Source: a virus. From it: a stretch of DNA of 38,992 nt. Under the pieces are notes generated by a model. The model had not been told where the DNA came from, ran no database searches, and saw nothing but the letters and a program-made list of their open reading frames with translations. Location of the stretch: IMG/VR virus record IMGVR_UViG_3300030329_004140, positions 1 to 38,992 of that record; one strand, given 5' to 3'. The stretch's first letter is position 1. Each line of letters starts with the position of its first letter. Made by a program: the position numbers and the translations under genes. Below, one piece after another: positions 18,961-38,992 of this stretch.

Positions 18961-19308
18961 ATGACAATGCAGAATGATTTTCTTCTTAGCATCTTAGAAC
19001 AACAAGAAGCGGGAAGACGAGGAATATTTGAACAGTTTGGAGTTGGTCCTAACAGGCGTGCAAGTGAACGTCGTTCTGCATCTTCGCTTTTTCAACCTGC
19101 ATTCAATCAGTTTTTAGGTCAACTTGCTGGAGAAATTGGAGGCGGGCAACCAATGTCTACCTTCAAGGATTTCTTACAGGGTGGTCAGTTCAATATAGAC
19201 CGAGAACTTTTAAGAACTCCGAGTACTTCTTTTACTTCTAATCAAAATATACTTGGGCAAGCACCTACCCAATTTGACTTTGGGCAGCAACGCGTACAAG
19301 GCTTCTAA
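18961..19308 (+). CDS. Unknown Gln/Phe-rich small protein before the giant ORF
   Basis: The 115-residue product is rich in Gln, Phe and Gly (SSLFQPAFNQFLGQLAGEIG) and has no membrane span. Its stop TAA overlaps the next ATG by one base (TAATG), so translation of the giant protein is likely coupled to it. Composition resembles the preceding protein's tail; both may be internal head proteins. No family was recognised. Confidence 0.65.
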   Translation: MTMQNDFLLSILEQQEAGRRGIFEQFGVGPNRRASERRSASSLFQPAFNQFLGQLAGEIGGGQPMSTFKDFLQGGQFNIDRELLRTPSTSFTSNQNILGQAPTQFDFGQQRVQGF

Positions 19309-22300
19309 TGGTCTTTAGAGATTTTGCAAATAGCCGAATTGCAAACCGTTTTGTTGATCTTGTTGAGGAGCCTTTAAATTTCGCAGGACGATTGAACGCA
19401 CGCGCTTTTGAGAGACCTGAAGTTAGACGCGCTCTGAATGCCGTATTTCCTGTTACGCAGCCTACAGCTTCTAGGTTAACTGGGCAGTCTCCAGAGCCAA
19501 TGGCGGTCCAAGAGTTTATTGGGACACAGCTTCATGACGCTCTTATCCATAATTTGACTGACCCTCCTGAGTGGGTCCAACCTGCATCAATTTCTCCGCT
19601 TGAGCGTGATCTTAATAAATTAAAGTTTTTTGAAGAAGCAGGAACGTCAGGTCGCTTTAATGAATTCCTTAATGAAATAGGTGCAACACCGCAGGAATTT
19701 GCTCAATTCAGAATGACCGACTCAGTAGAAGCAGACCTTATGTTTGTTCAAAGCCAGCTTAGGCTATTAGGTTCATCTACGATTCTTCCGGGTAACACAC
19801 GTAAAGAACAACTTGATGCTGGATTATTTAGGCTAAAACGGCTAACTGGGACAGCTCCTTCTACTGGTGTAAGTCGTGCAGAAATACAAACACGAGCTGC
19901 ACATAATCCAGCAGTAGCTATTGATATGGCAGGAACAATAGCTGGGGCTGGTTTCTTACCGGGAGAAGCCGTATCAAGTCTTGCTTTGGGTCAAGGCGCA
20001 AGGCTAACTGCTAAAGCAATTGGGCTTGATGAAGAAGCCCAACGTCAAGCTGAACATATAGGTACATTTGTAGGAATGTTTGTTGCAGGTGCTCCAAGAA
20101 ATCCTGCTCGTACATTAACCTATCTTGACGACTTGCACAATATACGTAAAGCCAGAGGATTAACTACTAACCTTGGCGCAGATTTTTATTTTGAAGAAGC
20201 CCGCGACTTACTAAGACTTAGTAAAGGGATGTACAAAATTGGAGGATCAACACTTAATGCCCTTAGTGGTATTTCACAAGATGTAACTCAGAAGGCAGCA
20301 CGTAAACTCTTTATCCCAATGGATGGTTCAACAAAGAGGGTTCCTGAGTCAAAAGTCTATCAAGAGCTTAGAAGGGAAATTAATCACAGAATTAGAGAGA
20401 GATATAAATCAGACGGAAAGAATATAAAAGACTTTGATCCTAAAAATAATAATGATGATTGGTTGCTCTTAGAGCGTATGTCTGCTGCTGTAGGCAGAGA
20501 GATGATCCCGGAACTTAGAGCTGCTGAGACAGGGAAGCCTTTTAGAGCTACATTATTTAGAGGCTATGGGCGAGAGGATAAAGCTGAGAGCATAATCAAA
20601 CCGCAGGCAGGAGGAGAAGCATTTAATTCTTTATCTGACGGGACTTATGCAACTACAAATGTTCGATTCGCTAAAGGCTTCGGACCAGAGCTTGAGCAGT
20701 TAGAGATTAGATTAAACAATCCTCTTGTAATAGAGACCGACGGACAGATGGCAGAACTTATGCTTCGAGCTACTGGGCGTAAAAGTCCATATGGTCCAGA
20801 GAATGCAGGAGAAGCGGCTGCGCTTCAACACGTTATTAAAGAGATGGGACACGATGGAGTTGTTGTTAAGACCGCAGTTGGGGATGAAATTTGGGGTATT
20901 GATGGCAGACCACTTACACCAGAAGAAGCTGGTAGATATTTACAGGAAGTCAATGCAGACCCTCTCAGGAATCTTCTCCCGTCTTTACGTGGAGAAGGTC
21001 CAATACTTAAAAGATTGTCAGATGAAGTTAGTGCTGCTAGAAATGAACTTGATGATGCTATAGCGGATAGAGACCTTCGAGATTTAGAGCCTTCTAGATA
21101 CTACAAAGTTGTAGACAATGCTACTAAGAGGTGGGAAGTTGCTAAGAGTAGATTTTTTGAGGCTAAAGACGCTGCTGATCTGAACCCTCTAAATAATAAC
21201 CCTCTACTTGGAAACGCTGGTGCAACCGCTTTCGAAATCCAGAAGTTTCATGAATTAGGTCTTACACCGCTAAGTACTAAAAGTATAAGGCAGTTTTTTG
21301 GCGGAGACACTGTTGTTGATTTCAGTAGTCAACGCCCGGATGTAATAAATAGGAAGATTAGAAATCCTAATCTTGAAGACGGCATTAGCAACCTACATGC
21401 TGAAGAAGCTGCTGATAAAGCATGGACTGTAACTCTTCGTAGGCTAGACAAAGAAGAAGCGGAGAAAAAGATTCTTCAAGCTCGCAAGGCAGGAGAACAC
21501 AGTGTAGCTGAATCGCTTGAGTTAATAGAACAATATAAACGCGAAATGGAAATAGAGCAGAGAAGGTTATCTCGTCCAATTCCAGAACCTAACGAGGCTG
21601 TTGAAAACTTAATTCTTCATTGGGTATTAGCTATTGAAGGTCCTCGTGGATACCCTCGTAGAGGAGACCCGGCTGGTAAAACCCAGAGAAAACTTTATAG
21701 ACTTGATCCTAAGTCTAAGGTACCTAAAGAAGATATAGATGAATTAAAAAAGGCAATACTTGAACGAGGTGTTGATGAAAAATCATTAGAAGATGCACTT
21801 AATAAAGGGGGTGATCAATTATGGTTCGAGATGGTAAAAGAGTTTGGACGAGAGCATGCGAATGAAATATATCCTGCCGACCGCCCTGTAGTTGAATGGC
21901 TGCCTGATGCGATCAAAGTAAGAATGGATATAAGGAGGGCTCGCCTCAATCCTGATTCACCAGAAGAATTTGCGCGTAAACATCCAGAGATTCCGTCGTC
22001 AGAAATAGATAATGCAATAGATGATATACATGTAGACACAGCGGGTGCTCGCGCAGCAGACCCAACTAAGATACCTCCTCGTAATCCGGGAGACCCGATT
22101 GGATATTCCAATGGAAAGAATACTAGTGGACCAGATCATGTAACTCCTTGGCAAGCTCTATTTGACGGGTTTGAAGTTCCTACATGGGAAACTATAAGTC
22201 AAACAGTTATCAGATTATGGGAAGGGGCGCGTAATCGAGAAGCCATTATTATTCAAGGATGGTTTGACGATCTTACAGAATTCGCAAAAAATCCTGTCTG

Positions 22301-25250
22301 GTATAGAAAAAGGATAGATGCTTTAAAAAAGTCAGGCGAGCCTGATGCAAACATGCATACATTAAGGATGGCAGGTATACGCGCTCCTGACCGAAAGGAA
22401 TGGGTTTGGGATAAAGAATCAGCTCTCCCTATTTATAGAGCCCTTCATGACCACGATGGAAATAGATCAGAGAAGGATACATGGAAAGCCCTTAGTGATG
22501 AGCAAAGGTATATAGCTGAGGCAGTTCTAGAACAAAAAATAATAGAAGAAAATAATCATTTCCAATTTCTTCAAGCTGCTGTTGAAAGAGATGCAGACCT
22601 TTGGAGGTTTGACTTAGAGAATTTTAGTCGGCAAATGATAGCCCATCCTTCATATTTTCCTCGTGGATGGAGAAGTAAGATTCATCCTAACAAGACGTTT
22701 GGTGAGGTTGACTATATGGCTGAGCAGAGAGAGCTTGCCACCTTAGCGGATAAAGCGGGCAGAGGTCTTTCAAGTCAACCTGCTTTTACAAGAGAAAGAA
22801 ATAAGTATTCCTTTGACGAAATGATTAATTTTGGATACGAACCTTCAACTTGGAATCCAATAGCAATGATGGCTCAAAGAACAATTTCTGGTAATGAACT
22901 ACGAGAAATGACGGTTCTTGTTGATCGGTTAATGAAGAACAAGCAAGCAATAGCTGCTGGCAGACCTCAAACATTAACTGGTACAAGCAGAGAGACAGGT
23001 GAGCTTGTAGATTCCGAGGTCACCTTTACCGCTCCTCCACAGGGATGGGCAGAACCAAATCATCCAATATTTAGGGGCAGAGAGCAAATGGACATTACTG
23101 ACCCCAAAACTGGAAAAGTAAAAATACTTCAATCGCGCCCAGCAATATTTGTTCGTAAAGAAGTTTCTAATTGGCTTGATGCGACTTTTAACCGTTCGGA
23201 AGAATGGGGCAATCTAAACAAGTGGGGTAACAGGGCAAAGATAACTAAGCTTCTAATGTCCGCATTCCAGCATATTGATATTGTTGGTAGAGCAATAGGT
23301 GCAAGTTTTACTCCTTTGAATAATCTTGCATACCTTTCTGGGAAAAGGGGAAGCCGTATACCTCCATTCATTCGCGTCCCTTCACTTTTTATGGACGTTA
23401 TGAGAGCCCAAGCAACTAAAGGTTATAGAGAAAACGCAAGACAAGCTTTAATTACAGATAAACCAATTAATAAAAAAGCATTAGGAAACTTGTCTTGGAA
23501 AGATGTTGTTGATGCTGGATGGGAAACACGCGGAGACTTAACTCTTATTCGTCGTGAACTTAATAACTACACAGATAGTCTTGAAGGCACGATAAACAAG
23601 TTGACCTCAGAGAATCAGAGTTGGGAACTACGATCTGTTGGTGCTGCTGCTAAAGGAATAGCAAAACTTAATGACTGGTGGCAGTCGGGTCTTTTTGAGG
23701 GGGTATATCTTTCTTCACAGAAATGGGCGTTAGAACATTTTATTCTCCCAACTATTAAAGCTCAGAATCCTACTTGGTCTGACAAGATGGTTGCATCTCA
23801 GGCTGCTGAAAATGTAAATATTATGTTTTCATCTTTGGGTACTTGGCAAACTGTATTAAGACATGCGAACCCCGCTATCCGTAACGGTCTTACAGCGGCG
23901 ATCTTTTCAACTAATGAGACTGAATCATTAGCTAGAGCCGCAATGCGTTCTGTTCCTTTTAGTCGTGTTGCACACTGGGAAAGGGCAGGAAAAGCTACAT
24001 ATACGGCGCAAGATAGAACTATTCCAGATATGTGGGGCAGATTTACTACAGGAGCAAGAGGAGCTCGCAAGGCAGGAATTCCTATAAAAGGAACAGATTA
24101 TAGAGTAGTCAACTCTGAACACTTCCGTGTATTTGCTGAATGGCATTTAGGCATGTACGCATGGATGGCAATACTTAGTACGATGTTGCATAGAGCGGCT
24201 ACTGGAGAATGGCTGCCAGCAGAAGCTTATAATCCTGTTGAAGGATTTAGTCCTTATTCTGCATTCGGTCCCGGATATAGAACTTCATTCCTTTCTCCAG
24301 AACTTCCGTTTCTTACAGGACGTAATAACCAGCCAATCAATGCAGATTTAGTTGGACAAATGGATACTGCGTTTAGGTGGGGAACACATCCACTTAATGC
24401 TGCCGCAGCCCGATTGAATGTACTGCCTAGTGCTGTCATCAATCAAATAGCAGGAAGTACTTTTACAGGTGTTGATATGGAAACTTTGCCTGAGCGTGGT
24501 ATACAGTTGGGGCTAGATATAGCAGGTCCAATTAGTGCAATAAATGGAATAAATGCATTACGTAATAATATTCCTGCACTTGCCAACTATACTCTTCCAG
24601 CAGAAACAAGAATAGGTACAACAGGAGCTCTAATACAAGTAAGCGGATTGAATGTAAGAGCAGACGATAATAGAGAACTACGAAAGCGTTTGGGTGTTGT
24701 TGGAGATAAAGAGCAAGCTGAATTACGAGAAGAATTTGGTAAGTGGGCAGGAGTAGATCAAGTCCTTCCAACTTTCACTCAGGCTCAGCAATCTATTCTG
24801 GCAGGACGTGATCAGTTTGGTAACGAACGTTCTATATTTCCTAAAAGTAAAATATTAGAATTAAATAGGAGTGCCTTAGACGTTGTAAGAAGTAGGCTTG
24901 AAAGATTTGAACAGATTGATCCTGAAGCTCTGAATCAAGTAAAAGAATTAACTATGCGTGATGTTGAAAAAGCTATAAACGAGGGAGGAACTAAAGGAAC
25001 AGGGAAGAGTTGGCATCATATTAGTATTCAAGACGTACTGATAGCTTGGGACTTATTTGCTGACAAACCAAGAACTCGAAAGGCATTACTAAATAAAGCA
25101 AGAGATGGAGGGTATGGACATCTTCTTGAGCCGTTTGAAAATACTAAAACTGCTCCGGGCGCAACAAAAGCATTGCAGAATTCAGAGACAGGAACTACTA
25201 ATAGGAATCTGTTTGCTCCATTAACTGCTCCGACTAGAACTCCTGAATAA
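19308..25250 (+). CDS. Giant polyvalent-type virion protein with ADP-ribosyltransferase-like domain
   Basis: At 1,980 residues this is by far the largest gene (5.9 kb). Around residues 405-525 it shows the core of an ADP-ribosyltransferase-like domain of the kind found in phage polyvalent proteins: LFRGYGRED (Arg near 417), GTYATTNVRFAKGFG, LEQLEIRLNNPLVI and a final MGHDGVVVK. The long middle (600-1200) is helical and charged. Residues about 1240-1560 contain a Trp/Asn-rich region (MSAFQHIDIVGRAIGASFTP, then RHANPAIRNG) that resembles the C-terminal associated domains of polyvalent proteins. Such proteins are thought to be packaged and injected with the DNA to act on host targets early. Position between portal and scaffold supports a virion protein. 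No catalytic Glu was assigned with confidence, so activity is uncertain. Confidence 0.72.
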   Translation: MVFRDFANSRIANRFVDLVEEPLNFAGRLNARAFERPEVRRALNAVFPVTQPTASRLTGQSPEPMAVQEFIGTQLHDALIHNLTDPPEWVQPASISPLERDLNKLKFFEEAGTSGRFNEFLNEIGATPQEFAQFRMTDSVEADLMFVQSQLRLLGSSTILPGNTRKEQLDAGLFRLKRLTGTAPSTGVSRAEIQTRAAHNPAVAIDMAGTIAGAGFLPGEAVSSLALGQGARLTAKAIGLDEEAQRQAEHIGTFVGMFVAGAPRNPARTLTYLDDLHNIRKARGLTTNLGADFYFEEARDLLRLSKGMYKIGGSTLNALSGISQDVTQKAARKLFIPMDGSTKRVPESKVYQELRREINHRIRERYKSDGKNIKDFDPKNNNDDWLLLERMSAAVGREMIPELRAAETGKPFRATLFRGYGREDKAESIIKPQAGGEAFNSLSDGTYATTNVRFAKGFGPELEQLEIRLNNPLVIETDGQMAELMLRATGRKSPYGPENAGEAAALQHVIKEMGHDGVVVKTAVGDEIWGIDGRPLTPEEAGRYLQEVNADPLRNLLPSLRGEGPILKRLSDEVSAARNELDDAIADRDLRDLEPSRYYKVVDNATKRWEVAKSRFFEAKDAADLNPLNNNPLLGNAGATAFEIQKFHELGLTPLSTKSIRQFFGGDTVVDFSSQRPDVINRKIRNPNLEDGISNLHAEEAADKAWTVTLRRLDKEEAEKKILQARKAGEHSVAESLELIEQYKREMEIEQRRLSRPIPEPNEAVENLILHWVLAIEGPRGYPRRGDPAGKTQRKLYRLDPKSKVPKEDIDELKKAILERGVDEKSLEDALNKGGDQLWFEMVKEFGREHANEIYPADRPVVEWLPDAIKVRMDIRRARLNPDSPEEFARKHPEIPSSEIDNAIDDIHVDTAGARAADPTKIPPRNPGDPIGYSNGKNTSGPDHVTPWQALFDGFEVPTWETISQTVIRLWEGARNREAIIIQGWFDDLTEFAKNPVWYRKRIDALKKSGEPDANMHTLRMAGIRAPDRKEWVWDKESALPIYRALHDHDGNRSEKDTWKALSDEQRYIAEAVLEQKIIEENNHFQFLQAAVERDADLWRFDLENFSRQMIAHPSYFPRGWRSKIHPNKTFGEVDYMAEQRELATLADKAGRGLSSQPAFTRERNKYSFDEMINFGYEPSTWNPIAMMAQRTISGNELREMTVLVDRLMKNKQAIAAGRPQTLTGTSRETGELVDSEVTFTAPPQGWAEPNHPIFRGREQMDITDPKTGKVKILQSRPAIFVRKEVSNWLDATFNRSEEWGNLNKWGNRAKITKLLMSAFQHIDIVGRAIGASFTPLNNLAYLSGKRGSRIPPFIRVPSLFMDVMRAQATKGYRENARQALITDKPINKKALGNLSWKDVVDAGWETRGDLTLIRRELNNYTDSLEGTINKLTSENQSWELRSVGAAAKGIAKLNDWWQSGLFEGVYLSSQKWALEHFILPTIKAQNPTWSDKMVASQAAENVNIMFSSLGTWQTVLRHANPAIRNGLTAAIFSTNETESLARAAMRSVPFSRVAHWERAGKATYTAQDRTIPDMWGRFTTGARGARKAGIPIKGTDYRVVNSEHFRVFAEWHLGMYAWMAILSTMLHRAATGEWLPAEAYNPVEGFSPYSAFGPGYRTSFLSPELPFLTGRNNQPINADLVGQMDTAFRWGTHPLNAAAARLNVLPSAVINQIAGSTFTGVDMETLPERGIQLGLDIAGPISAINGINALRNNIPALANYTLPAETRIGTTGALIQVSGLNVRADDNRELRKRLGVVGDKEQAELREEFGKWAGVDQVLPTFTQAQQSILAGRDQFGNERSIFPKSKILELNRSALDVVRSRLERFEQIDPEALNQVKELTMRDVEKAINEGGTKGTGKSWHHISIQDVLIAWDLFADKPRTRKALLNKARDGGYGHLLEPFENTKTAPGATKALQNSETGTTNRNLFAPLTAPTRTPE

Positions 25251-26276: not shown

Positions 26277-27188
26277 ATGCCACAGACGGCTACTACTGGT
26301 AATCTTGCTAACGTCCAGAAGATTATTATTAATGCTGCTCGTTATGTGCAGGAGCACAAAGCTCCTTCATGGCAGCTAATTGATAAAGTCTCACTGCCGA
26401 AAGGTGCTTCAACAGTTCGTATTCCTAAAGTCGGACAGTTCACAATTGCTGAACTTGTTGACGGTCAGGACATGACTGACGAGCAATCTATTGGTTTGAC
26501 CAGTGTTGATCTGACCACCTCAGAAAAAGGTGCGAAGATTATTATCACTGACAAGCTTATGCGGCAGCATGGCAGCACTGATGTCATGTCGATTATTGGT
26601 CGGCAGTTCGGTGACGCAGGAGCCAGAAAACAAGATCGAGACACTCAGGCACTTTATAGTGGTCTGAATGGCGGTACTGCATATGGTGCCGCAGGTTCCT
26701 CAATGGGACTTTCTCGTTTTGCTGGTGCTATTGCACGGTCAAGAGGCGGAGGAAAATCAGGTTCTGCTACTGCAAATGAAACAGGCAGCGAACCGTTTGA
26801 CCCAACTTATGCAGTACATCATCCGCATAGCGTGTTTGATGTTACAGCCTCAGCAACTGCTATTGGTGCTGGCACTAAACAAGCAGTAAATGACAGACGT
26901 GAAGAAGCTATGTTGAAGAATTTCTTCAAAATTAGTTTCAACGGCGTTGACCTTTTTGAAAGCGGAAACCTTGACATCGACTCCAGTGGAGACGTAACAG
27001 GGGTTATTGCTCAGCGTGATGCTCTTATTGGTATTACCAGCGTAGGCTGGCATACTGAGCGACAGCGTGATGCATCCGCACGAGGATGGGAAGTTAACTT
27101 TACGTCAGACTATGACGTGTTTGAACAAGACGATAAGCACGGTGCACCGCTTCTTTACGATGCAACAGTACCGGGTACTTCTTCTTAG
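26277..27188 (+). CDS. Major capsid protein
   Basis: The 303-residue protein follows the scaffold and has the character of an HK97-fold capsid protein: an N-terminal helical arm, VRIPKVGQFTIAELVDGQDM with an extended loop, SEKGAKIIITDKLMRQHG (spine helix start), a Gly-rich central stretch, and a C-terminal GWHTERQRDASARGWEV with a final strand. It should form the icosahedral shell. No delta-domain or protease is apparent. The ATG at 26277 follows AAGGGA by about 11 nt. Assignment rests on synteny, size and composition. Confidence 0.78.
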   Translation: MPQTATTGNLANVQKIIINAARYVQEHKAPSWQLIDKVSLPKGASTVRIPKVGQFTIAELVDGQDMTDEQSIGLTSVDLTTSEKGAKIIITDKLMRQHGSTDVMSIIGRQFGDAGARKQDRDTQALYSGLNGGTAYGAAGSSMGLSRFAGAIARSRGGGKSGSATANETGSEPFDPTYAVHHPHSVFDVTASATAIGAGTKQAVNDRREEAMLKNFFKISFNGVDLFESGNLDIDSSGDVTGVIAQRDALIGITSVGWHTERQRDASARGWEVNFTSDYDVFEQDDKHGAPLLYDATVPGTSS

Positions 27189-27200
27189 TTAGGGCTCTAG

Positions 27201-27830
27201 ATGGTTAATCTTGATATTGAAATACAAAACAACATTCGTTCCGCCGGTTATGGTATTCAGTTTGTTGGACTAGATACGGGGATGCTCCCTTTGTATCTTC
27301 ATAAAGAATCTCTTTCGGACAAAGTTCGAGGCGATGTTTTTTTGAAAGCAAAGATTGCAAATCCTAGAACTGGACCTAATAATGCTGAAATGCAATACCT
27401 TGCAAAGAAAGCCTCTATTGGTATCTTTGCTTGGAAACCCGGAGAGGACTGTCTTGTTAAAACCTTTGAGAACATTAGTTATGAAAGGGTTGGACAAGAA
27501 ACAAAGATAGTTCGTGGTGAGCCCTACTTAGGATGCGAATGGTGTCGAGAAGAACCATCTTCAACAATTGTGCATGAGGCGGATGTAAGTACATCTTCCG
27601 AGGCAGAGCCCGTTGAGGAATCTGAACTTGCTCCGCCAAGTGCTTTTTGTTCCGATTGTGGACACGGCTTCAAACTTGAAGATAAAAACGGGAAACCGTT
27701 TTCTTATAAACAAAGAGTGGCTCAAGTCGCTGCTCATAATCGGAATAAACATACACCTAAATCCGCTGACACTTCAGTTGATACTGAGGTACCTGAACCT
27801 ATTGGCGAGGGTGTCAGCAAAGGAAATTGA
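27201..27830 (+). CDS. Unknown head-module protein with Cys/His zinc finger
   Basis: The 209-residue protein has a strand-rich first half (1-115) and CEWC near residue 113, then an acidic Ser/Glu linker. A C2H2-like motif follows: CSDCGHGFK plus H and NRNKH near residues 151-184. It lies 12 nt after the capsid gene and 1 nt before the probable decoration gene, in the place where podoviruses often encode head completion or minor capsid proteins. Zinc binding is likely from the motif; the function is not known. Confidence 0.68.
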   Translation: MVNLDIEIQNNIRSAGYGIQFVGLDTGMLPLYLHKESLSDKVRGDVFLKAKIANPRTGPNNAEMQYLAKKASIGIFAWKPGEDCLVKTFENISYERVGQETKIVRGEPYLGCEWCREEPSSTIVHEADVSTSSEAEPVEESELAPPSAFCSDCGHGFKLEDKNGKPFSYKQRVAQVAAHNRNKHTPKSADTSVDTEVPEPIGEGVSKGN

Positions 27831-27831
27831 A

Positions 27832-28617
27832 ATGAGCTTTCCGACAGTTGTTGGGCTAAAGCCCGGCGATGAGAAAGTAACAAGTACCGATAAGATTCGC
27901 CCTCTTGGTACTAGGGGACAGACTCCAGATGGTCGTGTCTTCTATTGGGCGCAGAATGCTGCGACTCAGCTTGAAGCTAACGTTGTGGTACAGAGTGCTG
28001 TTATGCATGGTGCTTCTGTTCACGGTGCTGGGCTTGATGTCGTAGGTGCTACGACTACTGGGAAGACTACTCTTACAGTAACTCTTCCGACTACCGATGC
28101 TGGTGCTGATCTGTATGCAGATGGGTACCTTACTATCGACACGTCGCCCGGTCGTGGTATTTACCAAATCGACAGCCATGATGCGGGTGCTTCGGCAGCC
28201 GATACGGTTTTCAACCTGAAAGAAAGCGACCCTCTTCGGGACGCACTTACTTCAGGCACGACTAAAGTAGGGCTTCGTCAGAATCCTTACAAGGCAGTCA
28301 TTGTCTCTCCAACTACCCAGACTGGTAGTGTGGTTGGTGTGACCTGTACAACTGTTGCTGCTTCAGGCGCAGCCGTTGATGGAGTTCACTCCAGTCCAGT
28401 TTACTTCTGGCTCCAGACGTTTGGTCCAGCGGCTGTAAAAACAGACGCTGCACTAGCAGCAGGTAAAAACGTTATTGTTCCCGGTGCTTCTGCCGGTAAC
28501 GTAACTGTTGCTACCTCAACTGCTGGAGAAGGTGCTTCTCAGATTATTGGTCATGCTCCTACTATTGGAGCTGGTGACGAGAAGTTCAACTACATTTGGT
28601 TGACAATCCGAGCATAG
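27832..28617 (+). CDS. Probable capsid decoration protein
   Basis: The 261-residue protein is rich in Ala, Gly, Thr and Val and probably all beta, with repeated T-V-T/V-V patterns (TTTGKTTLTVTLPTTDAG) and a C-terminal EKFNYIWLTIRA strand. It has no membrane span or catalytic motif. Start ATG 27832 is chosen because AGGA lies 7 nt upstream and the previous gene stops 2 nt before; a longer frame from 27613 would overlap that gene almost completely. The place just after the capsid and before a strong hairpin suits an abundant capsid surface protein. The decoration role is inferred. Confidence 0.68.
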   Translation: MSFPTVVGLKPGDEKVTSTDKIRPLGTRGQTPDGRVFYWAQNAATQLEANVVVQSAVMHGASVHGAGLDVVGATTTGKTTLTVTLPTTDAGADLYADGYLTIDTSPGRGIYQIDSHDAGASAADTVFNLKESDPLRDALTSGTTKVGLRQNPYKAVIVSPTTQTGSVVGVTCTTVAASGAAVDGVHSSPVYFWLQTFGPAAVKTDAALAAGKNVIVPGASAGNVTVATSTAGEGASQIIGHAPTIGAGDEKFNYIWLTIRA

Positions 28618-28620
28618 TCA

Positions 28621-28650
28621 GAAGGGGCGGGGTGAAAGCCCCGCCCTTTC
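28621..28650 (+). terminator. GC-rich hairpin after the capsid/decoration genes
   Basis: GGGCGGGG (28625-28632) pairs with CCCCGCCC (28639-28646) around TGAAAG, extended by GAAG/TTTC with a G-T wobble to 12 bp. The T-run is only TTT, so it may be a partial terminator that keeps capsid transcripts above those of the sugar cassette. Confidence 0.7.
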
Positions 28651-28663
28651 AGAAAGTAAATAG

Positions 28664-29407
28664 TTGAGAGAAATTTGTATCTCAGGGTTTTCAGCTCTTA
28701 CACGAGACTGGTACCTGCAACTTGATTCTTCGGTAGAAATATGGGCAATGAATGAAGCCCATATCTACCTCAAGCGCAAAGCCTCGCGCTGGTTCCAATT
28801 ACATCCACGCAACTGGAACGAAACAAAAGCCATCGAGAATGAATGGGATTTAGATAACTACGGTCGCCCAAAGCAACACGTAGAACTTCTTAGCAAACTT
28901 GATGTGCCTATTTATCAACAGGCAATTGACGAACGTATACCAATGTCTACCATCTATCCAATAGATGAAGTGGCTGAGCGATACGGTTTTGAATGGGTAG
29001 ATGGAAGCAAGCGTGCCTATCTAACTTCAACCGCATCATTCATGATTGCCCTTGCAGTATTGGAACATGATAGATATGTCGATAAGCATCCACGAGGTAA
29101 GAAGGGAAGAGTCCAGCGGATACACCTCGCCGGTATAGAATTAGCGATAGGGACTGAATACTTCGATCAACGTCCTTGTTTAGAGTATTGGTGTGGTTTA
29201 GCTACAGGTAAAGGCATTGATATTGTTTTACCTAAAACAGGTTCAAACTTATTGACTGGGCAAACCTACGCATACGAGCACTCTGACCCACTACATCCGG
29301 GTAGCACTAAAAGCGTTGCCTATGAATTCAATTCACAGACCAGTGAAAACTTTGCGGCTGTACTTGAAAACGAGGAAGGCAAGGCAGTTGGAATTCCCAT
29401 GGAATAG
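28664..29407 (+). CDS. GT42-like Rossmann-type protein, candidate nonulosonate transferase (paralogue 1)
   Basis: The 247-residue protein shares its whole motif series with the gene at 32607. The series is ICISGF at the N-terminus, VEIWAMNEAHIYL (Asn30), RWFQLHPRNW, YGRPKQHVE, SxxSFMIALAV (Ser122, Ser124), IHLAGIEL and EYFDQRPCLEYWCG. The order recalls family 42 sialyltransferases of Campylobacter (CstII), where a CNQFY motif, a TSGVYMCAVAI helix and IYLSGIDF follow one another. The next genes make CMP-nonulosonate, so a sugar transferase is the leading hypothesis. The key catalytic His is not assigned. The start is TTG at 28664 with a weak ribosome-binding site. A general MptE/DUF115-like Rossmann protein is the alternative. 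Confidence 0.6.
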   Translation: MREICISGFSALTRDWYLQLDSSVEIWAMNEAHIYLKRKASRWFQLHPRNWNETKAIENEWDLDNYGRPKQHVELLSKLDVPIYQQAIDERIPMSTIYPIDEVAERYGFEWVDGSKRAYLTSTASFMIALAVLEHDRYVDKHPRGKKGRVQRIHLAGIELAIGTEYFDQRPCLEYWCGLATGKGIDIVLPKTGSNLLTGQTYAYEHSDPLHPGSTKSVAYEFNSQTSENFAAVLENEEGKAVGIPME

Positions 29408-29408
29408 A

Positions 29409-29552
29409 ATGTGTAAAGGTGGTGGGAAATTTTCCGCTACTGGCTTCCTTCATTGGGACCAAAACAATCTCCAGCACAGCACTCAATGCCCTGAGTGTGG
29501 TAAAGTTCGTCCTTGTAATGGCGAAGGAAAACTAGAGGTACATAAGAAGTGA
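29409..29552 (+). CDS. Small zinc-ribbon protein, 47 residues
   Basis: From ATG 29409, directly after the previous stop, the frame encodes MCKGGGKFSATGFLHWDQ..., with CPEC and a further Cys four residues on (KVRPC), enough for a small zinc knuckle. A longer frame from 29316 overlaps the upstream gene and is not supported. Its stop TGA overlaps the next start GTG, so it is part of the sugar-cassette operon. Its function is unknown. Confidence 0.55.
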   Translation: MCKGGGKFSATGFLHWDQNNLQHSTQCPECGKVRPCNGEGKLEVHKK

Positions 29553-29734
29553 CAAAGGTTAATATAAAAGGCACTGTTTGGGACATCTTGAAAGTAGAAG
29601 CAGGGACTGTAACTTTTGTAGGCGGAGGTTCTACTCCTGTCAATGCTGAAACTCAAAAGGAAATAGAACTTCAGTTAGCCCCTAAAGAGACAGCCCCTAA
29701 AAAGAAAAAGGCTAAACGAAAGAAGAAAGCGTAG
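29549..29734 (+). CDS. Small protein with Lys-rich tail, 61 residues
   Basis: The first 35 residues form a short strand-rich unit (VWDILKVEAGTVTFVGGG) and the last 20 are almost only Lys, Ala and Pro (KKKKAKRKKKA). It starts at GTG 29549, overlapping the previous stop (GTGA), and ends just before a T8 run (29736-29743). A nucleic-acid- or membrane-binding tail is possible. No family was recognised. Confidence 0.55.
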   Translation: MTKVNIKGTVWDILKVEAGTVTFVGGGSTPVNAETQKEIELQLAPKETAPKKKKAKRKKKA

Positions 29735-29741
29735 ATTTTTT

Positions 29742-30449
29742 TTGCTTGAAAATCCATCTCTCCAGATGCTCGACGATCCAGAGAGATTGCTAAATATACG
29801 TAAAGTTACTGATTATGCAGAGTGGAGGTCTAAGGCTGTTGCAAAGGAGCCGTGGACTTATGAGTGGTTAAAAGACTTTGACCACAGTACAGTCCTCTGG
29901 AATATCGGAGCCTGTGTTGGCAGTTATGCTTTGATGGCTGGGGCAAGGGGGGCTCGTGTTTATGCCTTTGAGCCTATGCCAGTTAATTACCATGCGCTTC
30001 AAGACCACGTAGAACTAAACGGCTTACAAGAGAATGTCTTTTGTATGCCTATTGGTCTCGGCTCTCATAATAGATGGGCAGATTTCTATACTCATGAAGA
30101 CGGGCTAAACCTGCCCGGTTACGGGCTAGCGTCCACAGAGGGAAGGTCTGAGCTAGTCAGGGGTATCAAGCTCCCCCTAATGTCTGGCGACGCTCTCTCT
30201 GAGTCCATGATTTTGCCTCCTACCCATATTCTTATGGATGTTGAGGGTGCAGAGCTACATGTGCTTGAAGGGATGCAAAAGATTTTTGAATCAAAAAAGG
30301 TTCAATCAATACTTATGGAAATTGAAAGTGAACAAAGTGAAGAACGTGTGAATAACTTTATGTATCCACATGGATATTACGGTGAAGAAGTTGCTAGGCG
30401 TAGAGTTAATTCAAAAGTAAGGGTCATAGTTTATGAGCAGGAATCTTGA
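29742..30449 (+). CDS. FkbM-family SAM-dependent methyltransferase
   Basis: The 235-residue protein has the class I methyltransferase signature of the FkbM family: LWNIGACVGSYALMA (SAM-binding loop, residues 52-66), VYAFEPMPVNYHAL with the family's FEP motif (residues 73-86), and MDVEGAELHVLEGM around residue 165. FkbM enzymes O-methylate sugars or polyketides using S-adenosylmethionine. Next to nonulosonate genes, methylation of a sugar or sugar precursor is likely. The TTG at 29742 is the longest start; ATG 29766 is a good alternative because the TTG lies at the edge of a T-run. It overlaps neuB by 17 nt. Confidence 0.82.
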   Translation: MLENPSLQMLDDPERLLNIRKVTDYAEWRSKAVAKEPWTYEWLKDFDHSTVLWNIGACVGSYALMAGARGARVYAFEPMPVNYHALQDHVELNGLQENVFCMPIGLGSHNRWADFYTHEDGLNLPGYGLASTEGRSELVRGIKLPLMSGDALSESMILPPTHILMDVEGAELHVLEGMQKIFESKKVQSILMEIESEQSEERVNNFMYPHGYYGEEVARRRVNSKVRVIVYEQES

Positions 30450-31458
30450 AATAGACCAAGTACAAATTAGTGATGACGACCCAGCTTACATTATTGCTGA
30501 TATTGGTCATAACCATGCTCGTAATATGGATCGCTTAGAAGCCATGGTTGATACGGCAGCAGCTTCTGGTGTAAGTGCAGTCAAGTTTCAAACTCGACAT
30601 CCAAAAGAAACCTATGCTCCTCATGAGTATTATCGCGAAAGCGACAATCCTCAATGGATGGATAAGACATATGGTATTCACAGAGAAAAACTGGAATGGT
30701 CGCCAGAAGAATGGTCTTATGTATTTCAGTATTGTGATGAGGCAGGAGTGACTGCCTTTTCTACGCCCTTTGATTTTAAAAGCCTTGACCTCTTAAGCTC
30801 CTTGAATGTTCCTGCGTTCAAGATTGCAAGCGGAGATGCAACAAATCTTCCTTTGATTGCTGCTATTGCCAGTCACGGCAAGCCAATGATTATTAGTACA
30901 GGCGGATGCTATATCGAAGAAGTTGATGAAGTTGTAGAAGTTATGGAAAACACCACAACTCCTTATGCACTTCTACAGTGTTCTTGTATTTATCCTGCTC
31001 CGCATGATGTTCTAAATCTAAAAGCAATTACTACATTTAGAGAGCGATATAAAAATATATGTACTGGTCTTTCTACGCATGATCCAGATACTCACCCAAC
31101 TATTGGGGCATTTGCTCTTGGCGGAAGAATCTTTGAGCACCATTACACTAACAACCGTAGATGGAAAGGAACAGACAACGCCTTTTCTCTAACCCCTCCT
31201 ATGATGAAGAAGCTTCGTCAGCAACTTGACGACTTACTTCCAGCACTAGGTACTGGTGAGAAGAAGCCAGATAAAAGAGAGGTTGCTTTTACGATGGAGA
31301 GACGGAAGCAGCTTTATTGGGGAAGCAGTGGAATAATGATTCAATGTCCGTATGCGGGAGGAATAGACCCTAAGTATTACGAGGAGCTAAAAAATAAACC
31401 ACGCTTCAATGAATTGATGCCAGTAGGCAGGGAAGTACGGTGGGAAGACTTTGAGTAA
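30433..31458 (+). CDS. neuB: NeuB-like nonulosonic (sialic) acid synthase
   Basis: The 341-residue protein has the length and TIM-barrel motifs of NeuB, which condenses phosphoenolpyruvate with ManNAc or a related hexosamine. Visible are AYIIADIGHNHARN, AVKFQTRHP (Lys51), FKIASGDATNLPLI, MIISTGG, the metal ligand His216 in GLSTHD, and FEHHYTNN with His236/237, followed by KGTDNAFSL. In the C-terminal part, ALGTGEKKP is followed by a shortened, diverged SAF-like tail, so the usual antifreeze-like domain may be degenerate. Whether the product is sialic, legionaminic or pseudaminic acid cannot be told. It overlaps the methyltransferase by 17 nt and the cytidylyltransferase by 8 nt. Confidence 0.88.
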   Translation: MSRNLEIDQVQISDDDPAYIIADIGHNHARNMDRLEAMVDTAAASGVSAVKFQTRHPKETYAPHEYYRESDNPQWMDKTYGIHREKLEWSPEEWSYVFQYCDEAGVTAFSTPFDFKSLDLLSSLNVPAFKIASGDATNLPLIAAIASHGKPMIISTGGCYIEEVDEVVEVMENTTTPYALLQCSCIYPAPHDVLNLKAITTFRERYKNICTGLSTHDPDTHPTIGAFALGGRIFEHHYTNNRRWKGTDNAFSLTPPMMKKLRQQLDDLLPALGTGEKKPDKREVAFTMERRKQLYWGSSGIMIQCPYAGGIDPKYYEELKNKPRFNELMPVGREVRWEDFE

Positions 31459-32188
31459 CGTTGCTTTTATCCCGGCTCGTGGAGGCTCCGCGCGTGTTCC
31501 AAGAAAAAACCTAAAGCCTCTTCAAGGACACCCTCTAATTGCATATACGATTGCTTCGGCACAGCAATCAAAAGTATTTGACCATGTATATGTAGCGACT
31601 GATGATCCTGAAATATTAAAAATAGCTGAGCATTATGGAGCTGAGCCAGTTCTTCGTCCTGTATCAGAACCAGAAGAACGAGACATTGAATGGGTAACTC
31701 ACACCTTTAGAAGTATTGCCCGTAATGGGGTTGAGCCTCATAGTTATGCCATCGTTCGCCCGACCTCTCCATTTAGACAGCCAAAAGATATTAGAACAGC
31801 TTGGGAAATATGGGAGAGAGTTCATAGAGAAGGATTTACTTCATTACGGGCTGTTGAAAAATGTAGCGAGCATCCTGCCAAAATGTGGCGTAGGCAAATA
31901 ACAGGAGAGATTACACCGCTTTTGTTACAGCCTCCAGAAGAATGGCATAGTACTCCATACCAAGTTCTTCCCGATGTTTATATACAGAATGCTGCTCTTG
32001 AAATTTCATTGGCATCAGTTGCTATAAAAGAACAGTCGATAACAGGCAAACGTGTATATGGATTTCTTATGACTGGAGATTCGGGCTTTGATATTAATCA
32101 TGAATATGATTGGGATTTAGCTGAGGCTAAAGTCAAATCAGGAGTCAGGCTTCCAAAGATAGAGGTAGAAGAATGGCACCCGGCTTAG
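31451..32188 (+). CDS. neuA: NeuA-like CMP-nonulosonate cytidylyltransferase
   Basis: The 245-residue enzyme activates nonulosonic acid with CTP to CMP-sugar. The N-terminus gives the nucleotide-binding signature AFIPARGGSARVPRKNLK (Ala14 in place of the common Lys in GGSKR). It is followed by HPLIAYTIASAQQSKVFD, VYVATDDPEIL and VRPTSPFRQPKDIRTAWE, with acidic metal ligands expected in the DSGFDINHEYDWDLAE stretch near the end. The start is TTG 31451 with GGGAAG just upstream, overlapping neuB by 8 nt. With NeuB it gives the last two steps to the activated sugar. No NeuC-like epimerase is found in this window, so the precursor must come from the host or from elsewhere in the genome. Confidence 0.88.
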   Translation: MSNVAFIPARGGSARVPRKNLKPLQGHPLIAYTIASAQQSKVFDHVYVATDDPEILKIAEHYGAEPVLRPVSEPEERDIEWVTHTFRSIARNGVEPHSYAIVRPTSPFRQPKDIRTAWEIWERVHREGFTSLRAVEKCSEHPAKMWRRQITGEITPLLLQPPEEWHSTPYQVLPDVYIQNAALEISLASVAIKEQSITGKRVYGFLMTGDSGFDINHEYDWDLAEAKVKSGVRLPKIEVEEWHPA

Positions 32189-32607
32189 AGTTACCAACTC
32201 CAGACAATGCTGATGACGCAACCCAATCACTATGGACTCCAACTGAAGTTGAATATATTCAGTCTTGGGTTGTACCTACTGATTATCCAGAACTTGGACG
32301 TGCAGTAAAGCATGAGTTCAAATTGTCATATCACGGAGAGGTTGAATATTTTGGTGTACTTGCAATGGAGGATGAATCTGAAGCACTCATTGAAGACATG
32401 GCTGCTAGCACAGCAGAAGCAGTAGTTGTAAAAATCCTTGAAAAAGAACAGATTAGATCAGGGCGTTTGATTCCAGTAGACCTGTCTAAGCCTGAGAACT
32501 TGCAAGTACGTCGTGATCTTGCAGCTACTTTTAGAGATTTCAAAAGACACCAACATAAACGACGTGAAAGCACTAATGGTCGAATTTATTATCCGGGTAC
32601 CCACTAA
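32173..32607 (+). CDS. Unknown protein between neuA and the second transferase-like gene
   Basis: The 144-residue acidic protein has a basic C-terminal segment (FRDFKRHQHKRRES). A central strand pair (FKLSYHGEVEYFGVLAME) and a helix are predicted, with no catalytic motif. It overlaps neuA by 16 nt and its stop shares a base with the next ATG (TAATG), so it is translationally coupled to both neighbours. It could be a virion or adaptor protein, or a cassette-specific factor. No family was recognised. Confidence 0.68.
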   Translation: MAPGLELPTPDNADDATQSLWTPTEVEYIQSWVVPTDYPELGRAVKHEFKLSYHGEVEYFGVLAMEDESEALIEDMAASTAEAVVVKILEKEQIRSGRLIPVDLSKPENLQVRRDLAATFRDFKRHQHKRRESTNGRIYYPGTH

Positions 32608-33617
32608 TGATTAAAAAAGAAGTTTGCATCTTTGGTTACGCAGAAGAAACACGCAATTTAGTATTTGAACTCCCTGATTCTGTAGAGGTTTGGGGAATAA
32701 ATATGGCTCATATGTTTCTTGGAGATAAGCGAAAGGCTCAAAGGTGGTTGCAGATTCACCCCAGAGACTGGAGTTCTCAAGGTCAGCCAGCTACAGGATA
32801 TTGGGGAAGACCTCGTGCCCACTTTGAATTCTTACAAAGGTTTGAAGGAAAGATCATTATGTCTTACGACGAACCTGATCTTCCTCAATCAGAATTATTT
32901 CCTTTTGAAAAATTTAGAAAAAAGTACGGACGAGAATACTTTACTAATTCCTTTTCATACTTGATGGCTATGGCTATTGATGAAGGGTATGGGCGTATTT
33001 ATTTATATGGGATAAATTTGACAGCCCTTGACGAATATATTCACCAGCGTCCTTGTATGGAGTATTGGATTGGGCAAGCTGAAGCTCGTGGAATTGACGT
33101 TATAATACCTCCCGCCTCTGCATTAGTTAAAGCTAATACATCATATGGATTGAAAAGTACTGACCCTTCAGAGGATTTAGCTAATCATGTAGCAGAAAGA
33201 CTAGATAAGGCTCGTCAGAAATACACAGAAGCAATGTTCAATTACAATACTGCTGCATCTCAATTACTAGAGATTAGACATTGGGACGAGTTTCTTGGAG
33301 ACTTATTAAAAGTTTCAGTTAATGAATTCAATGACATCAAAATGTCAAAGGCTGCTAGGGAAAAAATAGGAGCACTGGCTAAAAAAATTCAACAGACGGC
33401 TGGTGCCCGCTTTGACAAAAGACGTGCTGCTTTTAACAAACTTCAAGAGAGAGCACAGAATGAAATCAATACTGCTTCTGGTAGAGTACAGTCAGAACAG
33501 CATTACTTATCGGTCATGGGTGGGGTAGACTATCGGGCAGGGGCTCTGCCAGAAATGTATTATCCGAACCCGGTGCTAGCGACAGACTTTGATCCACCGG
33601 AGCAACAAGCGGTGTAA
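32607..33617 (+). CDS. GT42-like Rossmann-type protein, candidate nonulosonate transferase (paralogue 2)
   Basis: This is the longer paralogue (336 residues) of the gene at 28664. Shared motifs are VCIFGY, VEVWGINMAHMFL (Asn32), RWLQIHPRDW, WGRPRAHFE, NSFSYLMAMAI (Ser115, Ser117), IYLYGINL and EYIHQRPCMEYWIG, ending in GIDVIIPPAS. The SFSYLMAMAI-to-GINL spacing matches the TSGVYMCAVAI-to-SGIDF part of CstII-type sialyltransferases. A C-terminal extension of about 140 residues (195-300 likely coiled coil) is missing in paralogue 1 and may anchor it to the virion or to a partner. Transferase activity is inferred from motif order and the NeuB/NeuA neighbours. The gene starts on the stop of the previous one. 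Confidence 0.62.
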   Translation: MIKKEVCIFGYAEETRNLVFELPDSVEVWGINMAHMFLGDKRKAQRWLQIHPRDWSSQGQPATGYWGRPRAHFEFLQRFEGKIIMSYDEPDLPQSELFPFEKFRKKYGREYFTNSFSYLMAMAIDEGYGRIYLYGINLTALDEYIHQRPCMEYWIGQAEARGIDVIIPPASALVKANTSYGLKSTDPSEDLANHVAERLDKARQKYTEAMFNYNTAASQLLEIRHWDEFLGDLLKVSVNEFNDIKMSKAAREKIGALAKKIQQTAGARFDKRRAAFNKLQERAQNEINTASGRVQSEQHYLSVMGGVDYRAGALPEMYYPNPVLATDFDPPEQQAV

Positions 33618-37537: not shown

Positions 37538-38992
37538 ATGCCTAGTACATACAGTTTATCGGGATTTTTATATGACAATGCTGGAGCTGCAATTGCAGGA
37601 GCCAGTGTCAACCTCCTTAAAAAAAATACAACTACTGCTTTAAGCGAAGGAACTACAGACACAGCAGGGTACTGGAAACTAAGTCCGGGTTCTACTCTTT
37701 CTGAAATGGCAGAGGTTGATGTTCAACTTACGAATGCAACTACTGGAGCTGTTCGTCGTATCAAATATGACGATGTGTCTGCTCAAGAAGCAGTAATTAC
37801 TAAGCGTGTTAGCTTGTCGCCTGACACCTTGCAATCAAATTCAAGCGGTGGTTTCTTTACAACCCTAACTGCTACTGGGTTGCAAGGAGCGTCACATACT
37901 GTAACGTTCCCAATGCTGACTGGTTCGCCATTGGTTATGAATACACCTCAGTCTTCTGTGGGAGCAATTACTCTCTCCAATGCTGAAAGCATTACTTCAT
38001 CGGCAGACATCACTGCCCGAACTATTACTGCTGGAGATAGCCTTGCTATATCGTCTGGCGGTCTTTCTATAAGCGGGAGCAACTTTGTAATTTCTTCTGC
38101 GGGCACTGTCACTGCGGGCACATGGCAGGGCTCTGCTATAGCCTCTGCGTATCTTGCTGCGGACGTTGTGACTGGAGCTAAGATAGCGGACGATTCTATT
38201 GACAGCGAACATTATGTTGCTGGTTCTATTGATAATGAGCATCTCGCAGACGACGCTGTTGATAGTGATGAGATTGCAGCGGGGGCTATTGATACAGCGC
38301 ACATAGCTGATAACCAAGTAACTCTAGCAAAGATGGCAGGTCTTGCAAGAGGCAAGATTATTTATGGAGATGCTAGCGGAGACCCTGCTGCGTTAGCAGT
38401 AGGTACAGCAGGTTATGCTCTTGCGACAGACGGGACAGACCTAGCTTATACAAACTCTTTGTTAGCAGCAGACTACAAAATCGGAGAAGATGACGAGACT
38501 AAGATTGATTTTGAAACTGCTAATGAAATCCATTTCTACGCTAACAATGTAGAACAGGTTTATCTTGCAGATAATATATTTGGACCTCAATCAGACAGCG
38601 ATGTTGATCTAGGTACGACAGGGGTTAGGTGGAAGGATGCGTTTGTAGACTCGCTTACAGTTACGGACGACGTAACTATTGCTGGAAACCTTACTGTTAG
38701 TGGAACTACGACAACTGTTGACACAACAAACACGGTAGTCAAAGACAGCTTGATCGAGTTGAATACGGGTGATAGCAGTAACTCTGATGACCTAGGTATC
38801 GTTATGGAGCGTGGCTCTACAGGCGACAATGCGATTATTGCTTGGGACGAAAGTGAAAACGGCTTTATTGTCGGAACAACTACTGCAACTGGAGCATCAA
38901 CAGGCAACCTAACCATTACCGCTGCCCCTCTTGTTGCATCAGATATTACAGCAGCTAGCTTAGATATATCAGGCAACACCGACATTGATGGA
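37538..38992 (+). CDS. Tail fibre protein, 3' end outside window
   Basis: An open frame runs from ATG 37538 to the window end (485 codons), so the gene is incomplete. Residues 1-70 form a carboxypeptidase-regulatory-like (transthyretin-type) domain (SLSGFLYDNAGAAIAGASV, ending GYWKLSPG). Next is a Ser/Thr/Ala-rich shaft, then around residues 210-265 a series of repeated D-S-I-D/A-I-D units (DDSIDSEHYVAGSIDNEHL; DDAVDSDEIAAGAIDTAHI), a repeat common in phage fibre shafts. Later comes DVDLGTTGVRWKDAFVDSL, another typical fibre unit. A receptor-binding head would be downstream. Strong similarity in pattern to tail fibres; the host receptor is unknown. Confidence 0.8.
   Translation, partial: MPSTYSLSGFLYDNAGAAIAGASVNLLKKNTTTALSEGTTDTAGYWKLSPGSTLSEMAEVDVQLTNATTGAVRRIKYDDVSAQEAVITKRVSLSPDTLQSNSSGGFFTTLTATGLQGASHTVTFPMLTGSPLVMNTPQSSVGAITLSNAESITSSADITARTITAGDSLAISSGGLSISGSNFVISSAGTVTAGTWQGSAIASAYLAADVVTGAKIADDSIDSEHYVAGSIDNEHLADDAVDSDEIAAGAIDTAHIADNQVTLAKMAGLARGKIIYGDASGDPAALAVGTAGYALATDGTDLAYTNSLLAADYKIGEDDETKIDFETANEIHFYANNVEQVYLADNIFGPQSDSDVDLGTTGVRWKDAFVDSLTVTDDVTIAGNLTVSGTTTTVDTTNTVVKDSLIELNTGDSSNSDDLGIVMERGSTGDNAIIAWDESENGFIVGTTTATGASTGNLTITAAPLVASDITAASLDISGNTDIDG

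Follow-up and report, generated by a model that had tools for sequence, protein, structure and literature searches.

A nonulosonic-acid cassette in a phage virion gene cluster pairs NeuB- and NeuA-like enzymes with candidate transferases of predicted GT42/Maf-like fold

We analyzed a 38,992-base virus record from IMG/VR (IMGVR_UViG_3300030329_004140; hereafter the window, with all coordinates on its + strand) that carries a cassette of sugar-related genes in its virion gene cluster. The cassette encodes a NeuB-family nonulosonate synthase (30433..31458), a NeuA/PseF-like cytidine monophosphate (CMP)-ulosonate cytidylyltransferase (31451..32188), an FkbM-family methyltransferase (29742..30449) and two proteins, T1 (28664..29407, 247 aa) and T2 (32607..33617), that belong to a family we call T. 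We think it likely that, while virions are being assembled, this cassette produces an activated nonulosonic (sialic-acid-like) sugar and puts it to use through transfer by T1 and T2; this uncultured phage thus probably adds such a sugar to its own particles or to its host. A preliminary description had recognized NeuB-, NeuA- and FkbM-like enzymes at these positions, and profile searches bear it out, with Pfam cut-offs passed by all three and an NCBIfam cut-off by FkbM as well: NeuB matches Pfam NeuB (PF03102) at 5.5e-67 (226.2 bits against a cut-off of 22.1), NeuA matches CTP_transf_3 (PF02348) at 2.4e-21 (77 bits against 22.6), and FkbM matches both Methyltransf_21 (4.4e-10) and TIGR01444 (1.7e-20). 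Its two paralogous transferase-like proteins also held up, as T1 and T2 are 33-36% identical, depending on the alignment, and have a predicted sialyltransferase/Maf fold.

T and NeuB are linked in viruses. A non-redundant set of 39 viral contigs with T, totalling 0.92 Mb, included 15 with a Pfam NeuB, whereas 67 random viral contigs drawn by means of an arbitrary 15-mer (2.0 Mb) included none (Fisher p = 4e-8, or about 6e-5 after collapsing the positives to roughly eight lineages). The size of this effect is approximate because the controls were not habitat-matched and NeuB-linked members were plentiful in the seed alignment. In the reverse direction, T was found in 15 of the 45 viral loci retrieved with NeuB, some of these being contigs already counted. 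We rejected descent as a single inherited block as the only source of the linkage: mapping NeuB presence onto the T tree takes 12 label changes, and T genes of cellular origin fall together in a starred clade of their own. In phages L049 and L053, T lies near NeuB, a cytidylyltransferase, a PseB-like dehydratase and amidation genes of the WbuX/WbuZ type, and L053 adds genes named as PseC-like and Pse-methylase; by eye, G018 and G009 have similar gene sets, and L029/L050 carry NeuB, NeuA and a pyruvyl-transferase-like gene. The lack of an epimerase gene had been taken to imply a host-supplied precursor, and the window, which holds no precursor genes, is consistent with this, whereas some other T-bearing phages do carry them. 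No T was found in plasmids, and the only named phage found with T is Microcystis phage Mvi-Yong1342-1. There (L008; PP496355.1, 34781-35584) the gene lies just upstream of the terminase and is annotated as a ‘type 11 methyltransferase’, a label that does not fit the T family.

T is also found in bacterial genomes. Searching 84,980 species genomes with a T alignment gave 15 loci; an earlier scan of genome contigs with the window-clade alignment had found no T. By eye, some of the 15 look phage-derived, most clearly L133, which has NeuB, NeuA, FkbM-like, portal-like and capsid-like genes together with T. In seven Firmicutes metagenome-assembled genomes (L135-L139, L141, L142) T adjoins NeuB and/or NeuA, and five of them (L135, L136, L137, L139 and L141) carry two tandem T genes with Arg-rich tails; NeuA in most of the seven is longer and looks, by eye, fused to a HAD-type domain. 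Judged by eye from their neighbours, these Firmicutes loci are chromosomal, not prophage, and they are possibly an unstudied bacterial nonulosonate system. On the T tree, paired T genes seem to have separate origins in the starred cellular clade, the window clade and L053.

The preliminary description had suggested looking for the same gene order in related phages, and it does recur. The block stands at the same place, with variations, in L001/L004, L002, L005, L007, L010-L012 and L014-L017; some of these are one contig retrieved twice, and L005 and L014 end inside the block. FkbM is conserved in L001, L002, L007 and L010, as is a 144-aa cassette protein (32173..32607) that is conserved in L015 and L016 too, where FkbM is missing at that place and the 144-aa open reading frame (ORF) follows T. 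T1-type genes occur in the window and in L007, L021, L152 and L155, which hold the nearest relatives of T1, and in L001, L002 and L010 the interval from the capsid-side genes to FkbM showed none. Synonymous differences are near saturation while the proteins are 45-80% identical, and dN/dS for the closest pair is 0.11 for NeuB and 0.15 for FkbM. Because the order recurs in related contigs and the proteins are conserved with synonymous sites near saturation, the cassette is not a chance arrangement; it is under purifying selection. Within this set, L001 and L002 have capsid proteins that are 99% identical (dS 0.25) and NeuB, NeuA and FkbM proteins that are 71-82% identical (dS above 1 where computable). 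A near-identical capsid followed by diverged cassette enzymes suggests that the cassette has been exchanged or diversifies rapidly.

Neither T1 nor T2 has a match above cut-off in Pfam, PHROGs or NCBIfam. In an AlphaFold model of T2 built from a 39-member alignment (mean predicted local distance difference test score, pLDDT, 85.6), a GT42/Maf-fold domain (residues 1-175) is followed by two long helices (190-305). With this model, Foldseek returned CstII as the sole PDB match below 1e-3 (5.7e-4). VIA-align placed the N-terminal domain on Cst-I at Z 11.2 (root-mean-square deviation, rmsd, 3.2 over 159 residues), on CstII at about 10.8 and on the P. multocida sialyltransferase at 10.6; overall, the predicted model matches the GT42 fold at Z 10-11 and rmsd 3.2-3.8 over about 150-160 residues. 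Maf (5mu5) scored Z 12.1 over 225 residues, with an rmsd of 18.6 that belongs to a multi-domain match in which several domains superpose poorly as one. When the T profile was compared with PDB sequences, GT42 sialyltransferases ranked first, at weak E-values of 0.02-0.4, and a single T member matches PF06002 at 0.0035. A glutamate-receptor likeness seen with a 7-sequence PDB profile was weak and spurious, and we discarded it; larger alignments gave GT42.

In phages and bacteria alike, all T members have Glu27, Trp29, His51, Gly135 and Tyr144, and almost all have Gln147 and Arg148, as would be expected of an enzyme. In L055 (6470-8233), and likewise in L056 and L057, an intein-like insertion lies within the conserved GVDMA...EY motif of the T homologue, a place typical of active sites. 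T is a new family with a predicted GT42/Maf fold that probably works like GT42 and Maf enzymes, and we are fairly confident that it would transfer a CMP-ulosonate made by NeuB and NeuA.

In the pathway we envisage, NeuB would condense phosphoenolpyruvate (PEP) with a host-supplied hexose precursor to give an ulosonate, NeuA would activate this product to the CMP-sugar, and T1 and T2 would transfer it to acceptors; FkbM may, going by its family, O-methylate the sugar. The enzyme families, their conservation and selection, the predicted fold and the non-random association of T with NeuB in phages and bacteria are observed; that the enzymes are active, which sugar they make, what donor T takes, and to which acceptor and by what linkage the sugar is joined, we infer.

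Several observations on the two synthetic enzymes, and others on T that are taken up further below, weigh against this pathway. In N. meningitidis NeuB, Arg314 of the SAF (antifreeze-like) domain is a key residue that positions the N-acetyl group of N-acetylmannosamine (ManNAc) (PMC6795526). In the window this position is Cys, as it is in the clade, where Ser also occurs, and the SAF domain is shortened; it is missing altogether from several phage and Firmicutes NeuBs of T loci. For NeuA, the Mg ligand Asp209 is retained as Asp214, and the second, Asp211, is Asn216 in the window and Asn in most clade members. In meningococcal NeuA, the D211A substitution lowers kcat 15,000-fold (PMC2901514).

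Mutated catalytic residues in NeuB or NeuA had been named in advance as a possible refutation of the cassette’s role, and this is borne out in part; most barrel residues of NeuB are kept. Aligned to N. meningitidis chains, with a list of PEP-, metal- and acceptor-binding barrel positions drawn in part from PMC6795526, NeuB of the window retains Lys53 (as Lys51), Thr110 (Thr111), Lys129 (Lys130), Tyr186 (Tyr187), His215 (His216), Glu234 (Glu235), His236 (His237) and Asp247 (Asp248). Two further active-site positions have changed, Asn184 to Cys185 and Glu25 to Asp, the latter being Glu in some relatives. The exceptions that matter, Arg314 to Cys in NeuB and Asp211 to Asn in NeuA, make active production of CMP-nonulosonate less certain. 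As both changes are common to intact, selected relatives, we read them as altered specificity, not decay; the sugar may be unusual, or one of the enzymes may be impaired. The window NeuB scores below the NCBIfam equivalog cut-offs for NeuB_NnaB (218.7 of 399.65 bits) and PseI (196 of 340.25 bits), and NeuA scores below that for PseF (TIGR03584; 107.6 of 205.7 bits), yet this is its top-scoring NCBIfam model. Because the NeuB, PseI and PseF cut-offs were all missed, the sugar cannot be named.

These same data raise the possibility that the product of NeuB and NeuA is an unusual one, made for example from an acceptor without the C2 N-acetyl of ManNAc, in which case Arg314Cys would mark a shift in acceptor specificity. 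We take this seriously while judging it somewhat less than probable. The loss of the N-acetyl-placing Arg314 across the clade, together with PEP- and metal-binding residues that are largely kept and the missed equivalog cut-offs, speaks for it; against it, the occurrence of SAF-less NeuBs in several T loci means that Arg314 may not be needed in this branch at all. An unusual product is compatible with the pathway proposed above and differs from it in the sugar only.

Where the sugar would go is a separate question. By analogy with Maf acting on flagellin, the likeliest acceptor would be a virion protein encoded next door, and we give the virion as the target slightly less than even odds. It fits the position of the cassette: in 21 of 39 loci, T has a capsid gene no more than 5 kb away. 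The same chemistry could instead be directed at the host surface, with T1 and T2 placing the sugar on lipopolysaccharide, capsule or S-layer glycans and thereby changing receptors or blocking superinfection. GT42 enzymes, among the closest folds, act on lipooligosaccharide in their known hosts, and phages commonly carry genes for converting the surface glycans of their hosts. However, T2 is predicted to be soluble with long helices, surface converters are usually early-acting or prophage-borne, and the proximity of T to capsid genes comes with a late-gene position; we therefore consider a host-surface target unlikely, though well worth keeping in view. Returning to the virion, we propose more tentatively still that T proteins make up a new family of nonulosonosyltransferases acting on proteins, found in many uncultured phages and some Firmicutes, that would sialylate capsids with phage-made CMP-nonulosonate, and in which recurrent duplication would have given paired T proteins with different acceptor sites.

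The remaining doubts concern T itself. In the 28 contigs scanned, no T member reached the Pfam cut-off for CST-I (PF06002) or MptE (PF01973). Conservation of the GT42 catalytic residues is not apparent in T. In CstII these are Arg129, Tyr156 and His188; the alignment of T with GT42 sequences spans only about residues 131-158, and Tyr156 was not seen in T. VIA-align also scored thiamin pyrophosphokinase (Z 11.2) and archaeal HPPK (Z 11.1) on the same fold, and because they score alike, fold alone cannot tell a transferase from a pyrophosphokinase. T might accordingly be another enzyme, or a sugar-binding protein, built on this fold. We find this improbable, since the linkage to NeuB/NeuA recurs in phages and Firmicutes and GT42 enzymes are the best sequence-profile matches.

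Finally, NeuB was not seen in many T-bearing phage contigs, most of them fragments, and this, with Asp211Asn, the shortened SAF domain and a degenerate NeuB in L015, could mean that NeuB or NeuA is impaired, that the phage relies on host CMP-sugar and that the cassette is decaying, a reading we give the least credence, as both genes are under purifying selection across contigs that are 45-80% identical and Asn216 occurs in intact relatives too and is not peculiar to the window. In that close relative (L015, 6600-7214) PF03102 does not match NeuB, whereas NeuA and T appear intact; either the synthase was lost in nature or the assembly is wrong there.

The surroundings of the cassette are as follows. 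Upstream lies the major capsid protein gene (26277..27188; Phage_capsid_4 9e-7; pelagiphage major capsid proteins by tblastn at 25-31% identity; phrog_267 major head 5e-5), followed by genes at 27201 and 27826. The latter (27826..28617) encodes a virion-region protein kept between capsid and cassette in L001, L002, L006 and L007, with no PHROG match. A strong G+C hairpin comes next (about 28618..28653; RNA fold -27.9 kcal/mol, z -7.4), and in L001, L002 and L007, as in the window, a strong hairpin stands 3' of the 27826-type gene, with differing sequence; this element would be a terminator or attenuator that sets abundant capsid transcripts apart from the cassette. A promoter scan of the cassette region gave sites no more numerous than in shuffles. 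After T1 come two small ORFs, FkbM, NeuB, NeuA, the 144-aa ORF, T2 and the genes from 33621 onward. The first small ORF (29409..29552, 47 aa) is zinc-ribbon-like with a CPECGK motif and has a 36% match in L007 only; the second (29549..29734, 61 aa) is basic and matches L007 at 49% over 35 aa. The model of the 144-aa protein (confidence 66.9, best Z 6.2) gave no clear fold match. These three ORFs and the hairpin were absent from the preliminary description. Its overlapping frames hold from FkbM through T2 (FkbM/NeuB 17 bp, NeuB/NeuA 8 bp, NeuA/144-aa ORF 16 bp, 144-aa ORF/T2 1 bp) but not for T1, which overlaps neither the preceding gene nor the small ORF 3' of it. Similarly, its placement of the cassette between capsid/decoration and tail genes agrees with the capsid gene and with a downstream tail-fibre-like gene that runs past the window end (37538..38992; phrog_28766 2.6e-6, phrog_892 tail fiber 1.5e-5), whereas a decoration role for 27826-28617 and tail genes directly after T2 were not confirmed. 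Further upstream, a 1,980-aa virion-region protein (19308-25250) has no match in PHROG or NCBIfam.

To our knowledge, glycosylated virions have been described for only a handful of phage isolates, with other sugars. If our reading is true, an acidic nine-carbon sugar made by the phage and attached by dedicated enzymes would give particles a coat of a new kind, one relevant to receptor choice, adsorption and recognition. A large unnamed family would be given a function that can be tested, both in phages and in the nonulosonate loci of bacteria, and T could be a small soluble transferase for glyco-engineering. A literature search of partial coverage found no report of phage-made CMP-nonulosonate, or of NeuB/NeuA, with a dedicated transferase family.

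Among known systems, mycobacteriophages Che8, Rita and Maravista use phage glycosyltransferases and carry glycans on their major capsid proteins; the parts of that report available to us do not mention NeuB/NeuA, the T family or a phage-made donor (PMC11256854). In A. baumannii phages, epaA/epaB and O-acetyltransferases act on the nonulosonate capsule of the host (PMC12053666, PMC6586298). As far as the accessible portions of these sources go, they share with the cassette phage-borne enzymes acting on nonulosonates, but modify a host capsule sugar and do not join CMP-nonulosonic acid (NulO) synthesis to a dedicated transferase in a virion cluster. GT42 sialyltransferases (Cst-I/Cst-II, PF06002) are the top Foldseek and sequence-profile match of T and use CMP-sialic acid as donor; T differs in falling below the Pfam cut-off and in lacking visible conservation of the CstII catalytic residues. 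Maf enzymes, which resemble Cst-II, transfer CMP-NulO to Ser/Thr of flagellin (PMC11339370). T proteins differ from these flagellin glycosyltransferases (PF01973; 5MU5) in scoring below the Pfam cut-off, in their length (200-350 aa against a 632-residue Maf chain) and in being encoded in virion clusters or beside NeuB/NeuA, whereas Maf belongs to flagellar loci; what the two have in common is the predicted fold of T and a genetic linkage to NulO synthesis.

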